Shown: positions 1,391-45,478 of the stretch, one piece after another | Position numbering within the stretch: the stretch's first letter is position 1 | How the letters are laid out: each line of letters opens with the position of its first letter | NCBI GenBank assembly: GCA_020328155.1 | Contig: JAIXMX010000009.1 | Location: forward strand, 741 to 57,565 | Origin: Candidatus Endomicrobiellum agilis | GTDB taxonomy: Bacteria; Elusimicrobiota; Endomicrobiia; Endomicrobiales; Endomicrobiaceae | Direction of reading: 5' to 3' | DNA: 56,825 bases | Position numbers and translations under genes: made by a program | The notes under the pieces: model-generated | The model's database searches: none | What the model was told of the DNA's origin: nothing | Seen by the model: only the letters and a program-made list of their open reading frames with translations

Positions 1391-1453
1391 GGGACAGTCG
1401 GAAGTAATAATAAATTTCTTAATGAGGTCGGAACCGCTTAAATCCTTCTTTGA

Positions 1454-3045: not shown

Positions 3046-3105
3046 ATCTATCCTTCGGAAGCAATAACGAAATCTAAAGTTCTTTCTATACCACACAGGA
3101 CTCTT

Positions 3106-3657
3106 TTATTTTGCTTCAAGTAATCCGTTTAATCTACTTATTTCTCTCTGCATTGCGTCAATCGTTTGCCTGTTGTTAACCATCTCCGTAGCCCACCACT
3201 GTGGCACGCCTTCGGAAGGATTGGCTAGTTGGTTAAGGATTTTTTGCTCATTCCTTTTCCATGCTTCTATTACATCTCTTAATCGTTTTATTTCTTTGTT
3301 TATACTTGCTTTTTCGTCTTTGCATTTTTCGCTACAACCTACTGATTGTTGCATTTGCTGCAGTTGATTAACAAAATTATCGTGCATTTTAAAATGATGA
3401 TAAGTGATGTAAACGCTGTAAGCTATGGCAAGCAGAGCAACGCTCCATCCTGCAAATGCCCACCAGTTGGTCTTTGGTTGCAATACAGGGCATTCTTTCT
3501 GCTCTGGGCATATGTCGGCAGGTGCTTTTTGTAACGGCTCTGGTTGTACCGAATCAGAGACATCTGCAACAGCGTCCGACGTGACTAGTTGACGAGGCGG
3601 AGCAACACAACCCGATATAAGCAACAGCGTTAAAACAGCTGATATTACTTTCTTCAT
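3106..3657 (-). CDS. Family A lipoprotein A3, intact
   Basis: 183 residues. Signal peptide MKKVISAVLTLLLISGC, family A linker, membrane helix near residues 66-86 (WAFAGWSVALLAIAYSVYI), then a coiled coil with two close cysteines (SVGCSEKCKD) and the conserved C-terminal pattern REISRLNGLLEAK. It is the most upstream gene of the array, so its promoter probably lies in 3690-3800. Function unknown. Confidence 0.75.
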   Translation of the reverse strand: MKKVISAVLTLLLISGCVAPPRQLVTSDAVADVSDSVQPEPLQKAPADICPEQKECPVLQPKTNWWAFAGWSVALLAIAYSVYITYHHFKMHDNFVNQLQQMQQSVGCSEKCKDEKASINKEIKRLRDVIEAWKRNEQKILNQLANPSEGVPQWWATEMVNNRQTIDAMQREISRLNGLLEAK

Positions 3658-3688
3658 ACCTATCCTATCCTATCCTATCCTATCCTAT
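3658..3688 (-). promoter_or_regulatory. Tandem GGATA Shine-Dalgarno repeat of copy A3
   Basis: Five full GGATA units followed by GGT and the ATG. The unit next to the upstream unique sequence has a G to C change on the minus strand (CATA instead of GATA), as expected for the eroding edge of a microsatellite. Confidence 0.75.
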
Positions 3689-3997
3689 GCGGACAGGCGG
3701 GAGATTATACCATATTGCTTTTTTCTAGCCTCACGCTCGGCTGAGACCATGATAATTAATTATTCAAAAACCGAAGGTCGCCTTTTTTTCCAAAACCTGA
3801 GACCGCTTTACATGGTAATTATAGTTTAGCCGAAAAGCTGCAAAAAAGTCAAATTTTGGTTTGTGCGTGCAAAAAAAAGGAGTAAAAAAAAGCGCGTGAT
3901 TTGCGGTGCCTCTAAGGCGAATTAGAGGCAATCAATTCAAAAACGCACCCCTTTTTTTGCCTCTTGCCAACACGCACCAGCGATATCCTTGTTATAC
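3689..3997. other. Intergenic region with hairpin
   Basis: No gene seen. It contains a perfect 8 bp inverted repeat TGCCTCTA/TAGAGGCA at 3907-3930 and several poly-A/poly-T runs. It should hold the promoter for the minus-strand lipoprotein array and the end of the ATPase remnant. Confidence 0.4.
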
Positions 3998-37915: not shown

Positions 37916-37984
37916 TAATGTTAAAGTGTAATTATGTCATATGTTGTCACTTATAAAAAAATAAAAAATCTATCCGCCTTTATA

Positions 37985-38012
37985 GGATAGGATAGGATAG
38001 GATAGGATAGGT
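37985..38012 (+). promoter_or_regulatory. Tandem GGATA Shine-Dalgarno repeat of the 38013 gene
   Basis: Five GGATA units followed by GGT and ATG, the same arrangement as in copies A2 and A3 at the other end of the window. CCGCC also precedes it, as in the A leaders. Confidence 0.8.
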
Positions 38013-38825
38013 ATGAAAAAAATAATATGCTTGTTGATTATCTGTTTGCTTGGATTGACTAGTTGTACAAAACAACCGCAGACTGTTGTGCAGGTAGTTG
38101 ACCGCGCACCCGCAGCGTCTGAGAGTATGCCCGCAGTAGTTGAGCAAAAAGCTGATAATTTTAGTATTCCCTATCCGATAATTTGGGGCAAGATGACGGA
38201 CGAGCCGAAGATAAAAGGTTACAGGTTGCCGCGTCCTACGTTCGGATATGGCGTGTATGAAATAAGCCCCGTTAAATTACTGACGATATCGGTGATTATC
38301 GCATTAATAATAAAAGGATCGTGGAACTTTTGGCACAAAGACACTGTTAACGTTATAGGTAATGTCACCGCAACTCCAACCGGAAGTTTTCAAGCAAATG
38401 CGAACGGTGTGTTCCAAGCAAATGCACAAGGTGACTTTAATGCAGTCCCGCAAGGTGTGTTTCAAGCAAATGCGAACGGTGCGTTCCAAGCAAATGCACA
38501 AGGTGACTTTAATGCAATCCCGCAAGGTGACTTTAATGCAGTCCCGCAAGGTGCGTTTCAAGCAAATGCGAACGGTGCGTTCCAAGCAAATGCGAACGGC
38601 GACTTTAATGCAGTCCCGCAAGGTGCGTTTCAAGCAAATGCGAACGGTACGTTCCAAGCAAGTCTCTCGAATAAAAAGTATAATATAAGCCCTAGCTCTA
38701 GCTCGAGCAACGAAGCAAAGAAGAAAAAGATAAAACCTAAAATTTTGATTGATGAAAGCGATAAGAGTTCGGACGTCAAATCACCAGATAAAAGCGATCT
38801 CAACCCAGACCCACCAGCGGAATAA
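38013..38825 (+). CDS. Lipoprotein with membrane helix and octapeptide repeats
   Basis: 270 residues. Signal peptide MKKIICLLIICLLGLTSC (lipobox LTSC, Cys18), a polar linker, a membrane helix near residues 90-107 (VKLLTISVIIALIIKGSW), then a spacer (DTVNVIGNVTATPT). Twelve octapeptides of type G-x-F-Q/N-A-x-x-N/Q (residues 124-219) follow, then a Ser-rich and a Lys/Asp/Ser tail. The regular Phe every eight residues suggests a small beta-solenoid or a flexible display rod. It lies between the direct repeats and shares its GGATA leader with the lipoproteins at 1-3.7 kb. Function unknown. Confidence 0.75.
   Translation: MKKIICLLIICLLGLTSCTKQPQTVVQVVDRAPAASESMPAVVEQKADNFSIPYPIIWGKMTDEPKIKGYRLPRPTFGYGVYEISPVKLLTISVIIALIIKGSWNFWHKDTVNVIGNVTATPTGSFQANANGVFQANAQGDFNAVPQGVFQANANGAFQANAQGDFNAIPQGDFNAVPQGAFQANANGAFQANANGDFNAVPQGAFQANANGTFQASLSNKKYNISPSSSSSNEAKKKKIKPKILIDESDKSSDVKSPDKSDLNPDPPAE
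38382..38669 (+). repeat. Twelve 24 bp in-frame repeats
   Basis: Each 24 bp unit encodes an octapeptide, for example GAFQANAN or GDFNAVPQ. Two subtypes alternate irregularly. High DNA identity between units marks recent expansion and the potential for copy-number change without loss of frame. Confidence 0.85.
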
Positions 38826-39179: not shown

Positions 39180-40583
39180 ATGCGTAAAAAGATTAAAAAA
39201 GAGCTAAAGGCTAAAAATGCATTAAAAAAGAAAAATGAATTAGGCAAAATTGACCTTTGGAAAGAAATAAAAGCAGAATTTAAGAAGGAGTTTGACGAGA
39301 AGCCTGACGAAGAATATAAATTTGACATGTGGATTAAGCCAATTACGAAAGCTAAGTTTGATAGAAAATGTAGCGAATTAACTCTTGTTGTGCCTAATAG
39401 TTATTATGTAACAAGTATCAGCGATTATTTCTGTGATAGAATGGAAGCTATCGCTAAACAAAAATTTGATATGACTATTTCAATTTTGCTCATCGTTGGT
39501 GATGAGATTGAAGAAGAACCTAAGAGAATAGAAGAAGATAGAACTCTGTTTATAAAAAAAGAAGAACCACAACTTGAAAAAGGTACTTTTAATAAAAGTC
39601 CATATTTCAAAAATCACTCCGATTTTAATAGTTTTATTCGCGATGTCAAAGAGCAAAAAATTCCAGAAAATACGACCGAACTTAATCCAATGCCTTGCAA
39701 ATATGGTATTGATGATGTCGCTACGTTTTCGCTCCTTGACAGTATTTTTTTTACCTATCCAAATGATAAAAGGAAAAAGGCAGAAGTTAATTTCACGCTG
39801 AAACTTGCAGACAGAAGTAGGGTCAAAATGGAGTTAAGACGTGGACAGATTACGCCTGCTGATGAAGGTCGTGGACAGCTGACTACAACGCACGCAAAAA
39901 TTTTCTTAGCTATTGTTCATATGTGGCAGGAACAAGGTAGCAGATACGTTGATGAAAAAGGATATTTTTCTGCTGTTAATGTTCCAATTCGTGAGCTTGC
40001 TAAGCGGTTAGGATATCGTAAATTTGGCGGTAAGATTTTTAGTTATTTAGTGAAAGCTATTGAAAGCCTTGTTTCTTGTCCGTTCTGCCTGTCCAATCAG
40101 GAGCGTTTTTATAGTTTTTCCTTTTTTACAAGTGTTTCGGGTGATGATGATAAAGGTAATTACAATCGCACTGTTTTCAGAATTATGGTTAGTCCATTTA
40201 TCTCGCGACAGTTGTATGATCGCCGAGCTTTTCTGCGAAATTCCGATTGCTATCGGATAAAAAATCCTACTGCTTTCAAGTTTTTATTGTGTTATGACAA
40301 AGAAATAATTAAAGGCAATACTCTTAAAATTGGAATGCATGATATCGCTGAAGATTTAGAGATGAGTTCTAAAATGCTTTTAAACGTTTCTTCCGTTCTT
40401 CGCGCTGCGTTCCGTGAATTGGACGGTTTTGAATTAAATGAAAATTATAAACTAAAAGCAAAGGTAATTAAAGAGGGAAAGCGATATTATGCACTAGCTT
40501 ACCGCGAACCAAAACCGAAAGAGATATCGTCACCAGCTGAGGAGCTGCTTGTCGGACGTCTCGGCTTACAAGCAATTGGCTAA
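39180..40583 (+). CDS. Plasmid-type replication initiator with DnaA domain I-like N terminus
   Basis: 467 residues. Residues about 20-105 follow the DnaA N-terminal pattern: a first helix DLWKEIKAEFKKEF, then FDMWIKPITKAKFD, ELTLVVPNSYYVTSISDYF and a last helix of DRMEAIAKQKFDM. A charged linker (about 105-150) leads to a replication-initiator domain with winged-helix features (TTHAKIFLAIVHMWQEQG; IRELAKRLGYRKFGGKIF; FMISPF-like segment IMVSPFISRQLYD; IKNPTAFKFLLCYDKE). DnaA domain I binds the replicative helicase in chromosomal initiation, so the fusion could recruit DnaB directly. No AAA+ domain of DnaA is present. It is intact, unlike the other replication gene of the island. Confidence 0.75.
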   Translation: MRKKIKKELKAKNALKKKNELGKIDLWKEIKAEFKKEFDEKPDEEYKFDMWIKPITKAKFDRKCSELTLVVPNSYYVTSISDYFCDRMEAIAKQKFDMTISILLIVGDEIEEEPKRIEEDRTLFIKKEEPQLEKGTFNKSPYFKNHSDFNSFIRDVKEQKIPENTTELNPMPCKYGIDDVATFSLLDSIFFTYPNDKRKKAEVNFTLKLADRSRVKMELRRGQITPADEGRGQLTTTHAKIFLAIVHMWQEQGSRYVDEKGYFSAVNVPIRELAKRLGYRKFGGKIFSYLVKAIESLVSCPFCLSNQERFYSFSFFTSVSGDDDKGNYNRTVFRIMVSPFISRQLYDRRAFLRNSDCYRIKNPTAFKFLLCYDKEIIKGNTLKIGMHDIAEDLEMSSKMLLNVSSVLRAAFRELDGFELNENYKLKAKVIKEGKRYYALAYREPKPKEISSPAEELLVGRLGLQAIG

Positions 40584-40995: not shown

Positions 40996-42037
40996 ATGTC
41001 TTGTTTACATCCTATTAACATTAATGGCAATATTGTGCCATGTAGAAAACGTACGAGCCTGCCCTGTATGCAGGCTCGTTCTGCTCAGTGGATTGGTAGA
41101 ATGAAAAATGAGTTGAAGTATTGGAAAGATGAAGCTTGTTTTATCACGCTTACCTATAGCCGTCAAACGCTACCGCATAAGGTTACGATTAACAAATATA
41201 ACAAAAAGATGAGTTTAAAATCTGGTCGTAAAATCTATAACAAAATAACGTATTACAATCCTATTCAGGGCGTGTTTCTTAAGTCCGATTATCAAAATTT
41301 TCTTCATCGCTTGCGGAAGCGTATTGCACCTAAGAAATTTAAGTATCGCGTTTGTGGCGAGTATGGAAAAACAGAGACGAGTACATTATCATCTTATTAT
41401 ATTCGGTTTATCTGTTATGCGAAATGTGTATTATTCCGAAAGTTATCGCAGACATCACCCTGAACTATTTTTTCCGTATTATCCTGAATATAGACCCTGA
41501 AATTAAGGCTTTGATAAAAGATTGCTGGGGCAAAGGTATCGTTCATGTTGCTCAGGTTGTTCCTGAGAGAATTGCGTATTTAGAAAAATATGTTGAGAAA
41601 CGTTACAAAGATGATAAGCCTTTTGGTTACGAGCAAATGCCAACCTTTAGCTTTGGTAGTTTAGGTATGGGCTTGCGATACGCTATTGATAATAAAAATG
41701 AGATTGATAAGTCCAATGGAATTATAGATAAATATTCTAAATATGACCCTCTTGAAAAGTATGTTCGTGGATATCGTCCTGCGACAGTTGAGATACCTGC
41801 GTCTGATTACTATTTGAACAAGATTTTTCCGCCTAGCCGTGTACAAGAAATTAAAGAACTCCGCAGGAGTAAAGTCGTTGAAGAAATGAGAAAAATGGGA
41901 GCGAAAATCCTACTGATGTACAACAAATGTCCGTTGCTCTTGCGTCTCGTAGGCATGCAGAAAGCGAACAAATACGGCAGATGTTTGGTAACTACCGACG
42001 TGAGAATTTAGGTGACTTTGATGATTGGAAGAAGTGA
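40996..42037 (+). pseudogene. Microvirus-type HUH replication initiator (VP4-like), three frameshifts
   Basis: The N terminus has the family pattern: cysteines in CRKRTSLPCMQAR, WIGRMKNELKYW, FITLTYSRQTLP and FHLLRKR-like FLHRLRKRIAPKKFKYRVCG. The frame then shifts near 41372 to RRVHYHLIIFGLSV, which carries the HUH motif (His-Tyr-His), and again near 41490 to KDCWGKGIVHVAQVVPERIA with the catalytic tyrosines in YLEKYVEKRY. A third shift near 41890 gives ENPTDVQQMSVALASRRHAE to the stop. With three breaks inside the catalytic core it cannot be active. Joined, it would be about 345 residues, normal for Gokushovirinae VP4 relatives. Confidence 0.8.

Positions 42038-44872: not shown

Positions 44873-45478
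<606 letters not shown>

Follow-up and report, generated by a model that had tools for sequence, protein, structure and literature searches.

Among bacterial tandem repeats that lie between a promoter and a start codon, those of uspA1 and uspA2 in Moraxella catarrhalis are the two that have been studied experimentally (PMC4679880); at uspA2, an (AGAT)n tract 132 bp upstream produces a graded change of mRNA level (PMC7302503). In Streptococcus gallolyticus, length changes in the (GCAGA)n repeat of pil1 and pil3 alter the frame of a leader peptide and, through control of a terminator, expression (PMC3894217). TAACTGA direct repeats occur in Beggiatoaceae and in some Cyanobacteria and Bacteroidetes (PMC4679880), and an account of ribosome standby sites describes upstream sites that help to recruit the ribosome (PMC3936740). 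The (GGATA)n arrays described here, from Candidatus Endomicrobiellum agilis, share with the uspA2 tract a variable short repeat upstream of a gene whose reading frame is untouched, uspA2 being a surface protein gene under graded rather than on/off control. They differ in that uspA2 is one gene, whereas here 17 leaders carry the repeat, which is the Shine-Dalgarno (SD) sequence itself and abuts the start codon. With pil1 and pil3, likewise surface genes, they share a pentamer repeat in the 5' leader; however, (GGATA)n contains no ATG, GTG or TTG and, whichever frame is read, runs into TAG within 15 nt, so that a leader peptide running through the repeat is impossible. TAACTGA repeats have the same placement as (GGATA)n but lack SD character and accompany varied gene functions in several lineages, whereas here each unit holds an SD core and the arrays belong to one gene type in one species. 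The study "Fine-tuning gene networks using simple sequence repeats" is said to have engineered synthetic repeats into ribosome-binding sites with the repeat serving as a spacer; a heritable setting of translation initiation by repeat number would be common to both, the reported difference being that here the arrays are natural and the SD is what is repeated. Most contingency loci driven by repeats switch a reading frame or alter promoter spacing, while in these leaders the repeated unit is the ribosome-binding site, and we found no description in the open-access literature of a natural family built in this way.

The window analyzed, a 56,825-nucleotide stretch of contig JAIXMX010000009.1 (assembly GCA_020328155.1), contains four arrays with n = 3, 5, 5 and 5, all directly 5' of lipoprotein starts. 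On the forward strand, the sequence reads (GGATA)5 at 37985-38009, in the ribosome-binding position of a lipoprotein gene at 38013-38825 (270 aa, lipobox LTSC); GGT follows at 38010-38012 and ATG at 38013, and 5 nt separate the final AGGA (38004-38007) from the ATG, its predicted duplex with the anti-SD being worth about -4 kcal/mol. The other three lie on the reverse strand: (GGATA)3 at 1372-1386 for gene A1 (889-1368, 159 aa), (GGATA)5 at 2539-2563 for A2 (1933-2535, 200 aa) and (GGATA)5 at 3661-3685 for A3 (3106-3657, 183 aa). Two further lipoprotein genes on that strand, B1 (start codon 1872) and B2 (start codon 3045), are preceded by one GGATA unit each, at 1876-1880 and 3049-3053. Both our reading of the sequence and a window search bear out the unit counts given in the preliminary description, including the single units of B1 and B2, and its identification of the repeat as the ribosome-binding site also holds, since the array sits in that position and every unit carries AGGA. 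Within the four arrays, 14 matches to GGATAGGATA were counted, where shuffled sequence gave 0.04 on average. The only Rfam families detected in the window were two tRNAs, with no curated family matching the leader, and protein-family searches with the lipoproteins returned no Pfam hit and only weak, untrustworthy matches in NCBIfam and PHROGs. Many of the proteins (A1-A3, B1, B2, the 38013 product and class II relatives) consist of a lipobox, a Pro/Ser/Thr-rich linker, a single predicted membrane-spanning segment and a C-terminus that varies, a layout that may place the lipid anchor in one membrane or leaflet and the helix in another. The 38013 gene additionally contains a coding minisatellite at 38388-38661, with about 11 copies of a 24-bp unit encoding FQANANG/FNAVPQG repeats.

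We searched all 23 contigs of the assembly (1.29 Mb, 99.9% complete) and recovered 17 perfect (GGATA)n arrays with n = 3-9: four each on contigs C2 and C23, three on C10, two on C18 and one each on C6, C7, C11 and C15. The observation in the preliminary description is therefore confirmed and is larger than described, with 13 more arrays beyond the four of the window. Allowing 3 mismatches over 17 bases added one decayed array (C10:13556, GGACA-GGATA), which precedes another lipoprotein, and three weak places (two on C1, one on C19), none of them an array of three units. Intact signal-peptide genes stand behind 15 of the 17 arrays, and 14 of these have a lipobox; the array gene on C6 (C6:3253) encodes a YGYDKDGY-repeat protein with a signal peptide and no lipobox cysteine. 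Behind the remaining two arrays are decayed copies, C18:29925 with a frame-shifted start and C10:4711 without a gene body. In 13 of the 17 cases GG and a single base separate the array from the start codon (ATG or GTG), and at C6, C11 and C18:29925 the start codon lies several bases further away; many sister lipoproteins have one GGATA unit or none. The preliminary description had named equal occurrence at non-genic places as evidence against its reading; across the whole genome, the arrays are confined to lipoprotein-type starts. They display a trait of contingency loci, a perfect short repeat array, within a gene or next to it, that exceeds chance expectation by far, and the lipobox proteins behind 14 of the 17 bear on another, an envelope product, without implying surface exposure. 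Judged by array anatomy, as known from this one assembly, the leaders would be simple-sequence contingency loci of an unreported variant in which the SD itself is repeated.

A different lipoprotein class carries a second repeat system, represented in the window by (TATATG)6 at 44890-44925 (forward strand), in frame within the signal peptide of a class II lipoprotein (CDS 44879-45478). Across the genome, (TATATG)n with n = 3-12 is present at 23 loci, each time in frame and 11 bases downstream of the lipoprotein gene start; the genes encode MKK-I/T-(IC)n...GC, with (IC)n forming part of the hydrophobic core of the signal peptide, and the repeat is absent from all other genomes among the 77 of the family. 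None of 88 candidate lipoproteins has both repeats on one gene. A census of perfect arrays with 4-9 bp units and at least 4 copies, conducted on 486 kb of this genome, placed all 41 arrays in lipoprotein genes or their leaders: 17 of the GGATA type, whose census copies may exceed n by one because the scan was not tied to the GGATA register, 19 of TATATG and 5 of other hexamers, the last with coordinates inside lipoprotein coding stretches. Over these 486 kb, pentamers were restricted to leaders and hexamers to coding sequence, and no array can shift a frame. Gain or loss of units thus leaves the reading frame unchanged, as had been proposed. Of the two modes of action that the preliminary description offered, a graded translational rheostat is plausible from RNA folding, while on/off phase variation is not supported: the pentamers lie outside coding sequence, the coding hexamers leave the frame intact, and three units are the minimum among perfect arrays. 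The frame-safe pattern fits graded tuning as well as a simple purging of frame breakers.

Extending the search to relatives, as had been suggested, we found (GGATA)3GG in none of the 41 other species of the genus (42 genomes searched), against 17 arrays here. With a looser pattern of three AGGAN pentamers before ATG, applied to 77 family genomes, repeated matches occurred only in this genome, and three other genomes had one match each, two of them imperfect tandems. The lipoproteins themselves are similarly restricted: searches of the genus's 41 other species found no relative for the A family (query P0002) or for class II (query P0005). Across 84,980 species, a scan for (GGATA)3 near ATGA retrieved 23 scattered single loci, and viral contigs yielded 5 more; these mostly do not precede a comparable gene, and a wider spread of the system was accordingly rejected. 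Four MAG contigs, three of them titled Gastranaerophilales, carry (GGATA)3-4 outside any long ORF, each time leading into a similar sequence of the GGATGAA.TGCGC type, perhaps a conserved intergenic element. GGATA repeats also precede serine hydroxymethyltransferase-like genes on a Methanosarcinales contig (7 units) and at C19:5949 of the present genome (2 units), which in such unrelated organisms is probably a coincidence.

Besides the in-frame hexamers, another feature not previously noted is an upstream element in the leaders that is complementary to one unit. In eight leaders whose upstream regions otherwise differ, most of what they share lies within the 20-25 nt immediately 5' of the array, where an AT-rich -10-like stretch is followed by CT(C)C.GCC(T)GTCC..ATA, and the anti-element is the best conserved portion. 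In A2 and A3 this element is GCCTGTCC (2569-2576 and 3691-3698, reverse strand), and in the folded RNA GCCUGUCC pairs with GGAUAGGU over 8 bp at about -12 kcal/mol. Its counterpart in A1 is CTGTCC (1392-1397, reverse strand), and in the 38013 leader CTATCC (37970-37975, forward strand), a predicted anti-SD arm whose transcript, CUAUCC, pairs perfectly with one GGAUAG at -8.5 kcal/mol; CCGUCC variants pair with a bulge at -5.5 kcal/mol. Hairpin energies across leaders range from -4.7 to -12.4 kcal/mol and are equaled, for individual leaders, by 0.02-7% of random genomic 17-mers; the 38013 leader, among the most divergent, still has the complement (0.55% of random 17-mers are as good). The values for C2:3130 and C2:1679 are underestimates, because the first unit there occupies the loop position of other leaders, and since the leaders are homologous, the 17 cases and their hairpins are non-independent tests. 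Consensus promoter scans at the leaders gave nothing above chance and did not call the -10-like boxes, among them TATAAT at 3704-3709 (reverse strand), which lies 18 nt before the A3 array with no consensus -35; transcription starts at the leaders are presumed from sequence, and the scans neither support nor exclude them.

Folding predictions relate this element to unit number. With n = 1, the predicted summed SD exposure is 0.1-0.3 in most leaders and 0.5-0.8 in three, meaning that the site is mostly covered, and it generally grows with n, reaching 1.1-3.6 with five units and 4-7.5 with ten, the hairpin being predicted to occupy about one unit at higher n. Taken by itself, the last SD shows no monotonic trend in exposure with n, and pairing between array and coding sequence is also predicted in some leaders. 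A single unit binds the anti-SD at about -4 kcal/mol, compared with about -14 kcal/mol for a full SD, so weakly that further sites could make a difference. In the genus, 9 genomes have a canonical anti-SD, and the 3' end of the 16S rRNA is unreadable in this assembly: the 16S gene (C22, near 60.8 kb) stops at about position 902 and is joined to apparent reverse-complement 16S sequence, a probable assembly error.

Judging from paralogous loci within the one assembly, unit number appears to turn over fast. The two most similar leader pairs, each about 94% identical over some 180 flanking bases, are one unit apart, whereas C2:1679 (n = 9) and C23:2112 (n = 3) are six units apart at 91% flank identity; over all leader pairs, the gap in unit number is unrelated to flank identity (Spearman 0.02). 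The arrays total 93 units, or 465 bp, with zero substitutions, against about 6% difference in the flanks of the closest pairs, the decayed array at C10:13556 being the sole exception. Whole-unit differences and substitution-free arrays between diverged flanks fit repeated slippage between copies. A gross repair defect is not evident, since the MutS gene, which lies in the window (846 aa, all five MutS domains), and a MutL-like gene (630 aa, named from its N-terminal sequence) both look full length.

From these sequence comparisons and folding models, we consider the likeliest reading, at about even odds, to be that the array is a natural tandem Shine-Dalgarno region serving as a graded, slippage-based translational dial for a species-specific lipoprotein family. 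Replication slippage would change n; the upstream element (CCUGUCC, CUAUCC or CCGUCC) would tie up about one unit, leaving the site mostly covered at n = 1; each added unit would offer the 30S subunit a free landing or standby site and so raise initiation; and gene copies or cells differing in n would make different amounts of lipoprotein with the frame untouched. The position of all 17 arrays at signal-peptide gene starts or their remnants, with none elsewhere, counts in favor of this dial. Weighing against it are the many sister lipoproteins that get by on a single unit or none, the homology of the leaders, the non-monotonic exposure of the last SD and the pairing of some arrays with coding sequence. 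In-frame hexamers in sister signal peptides might tune export in a similarly graded way. The broader proposal that a large species-specific lipoprotein repertoire is served by two frame-safe dials, SD units titrated by a complementary element acting on translation and the length of the (Ile-Cys)n signal-peptide core acting on export, is tentative and somewhat doubtful. With 17 leaders in one genome and a complementary element, output could depend on unit number, and the leaders offer a natural allelic series (n = 1 to 9, similar sequence) for asking how the effects of tandem SD and standby sites combine. If the dial is real, this small genome would keep dozens of species-specific lipoproteins under mutation-driven graded expression control.

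A neutral origin is the alternative that survives best and retains considerable plausibility, although it falls short of an even chance. A leader with ATAGGATAGG would have been duplicated along with the lipoprotein family, n would drift by slippage with any n of at least 1 sufficient, and repeats would persist only where no reading frame can break. The homology of the leaders, the existence of single-unit leaders alongside arrays and the two arrays persisting ahead of decayed copies are all consistent with this, as is the segregation of pentamers into leaders and hexamers into coding sequence, which purging of frame breakers would yield. Slippage is, however, not simply general, as no long array lies outside lipoprotein genes in 486 kb, and the seemingly intact MutS and MutL genes also speak against such drift; moreover, the maintenance of the anti-element across divergent upstream sequences is left unexplained.

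We regard as unlikely a role for the arrays as recombination joints that shuffle promoters, signal peptides and bodies of the lipoprotein family. Leaders and bodies are indeed mosaic—C15:6248 and C23:2112 are 91% identical upstream although their proteins belong to different families, and C23:2112 matches C2:3130 at 92% downstream but is unrelated to it upstream—but the shared block reaches about 20-25 nt upstream of the array, which places the breaks near the -10-like stretch rather than at the array, and 25-45 bp is short for homologous recombination. That the repeated GGA motifs serve as a platform to which CsrA or another regulator of its kind binds is highly improbable: AUAGGAU does resemble the GGA-centred CsrA site discussed in PMC4679880, but the csrA gene is absent from this 99.9% complete genome, and the same search was positive in three control genomes. 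Just as remote is a two-layer G-quadruplex gating translation, whose minimum, (GGATA)3GG, coincides with the smallest perfect array of exactly three units plus GG, for with quadruplexes allowed in ViennaRNA the minimum-energy fold is unchanged for any n from 0 to 10, and the missing n = 2 is explained equally well by a slippage threshold.

The neighborhood of the 38013 gene also contains a broken phage remnant, in which two adjacent frames (40996-42011) match different parts of phrog_942, a phage replication initiation protein family. Beside it, at 39180-40583, lies a gene for a 467-aa protein in which the DnaA N-terminal domain (PF11638) is the only domain recognized.
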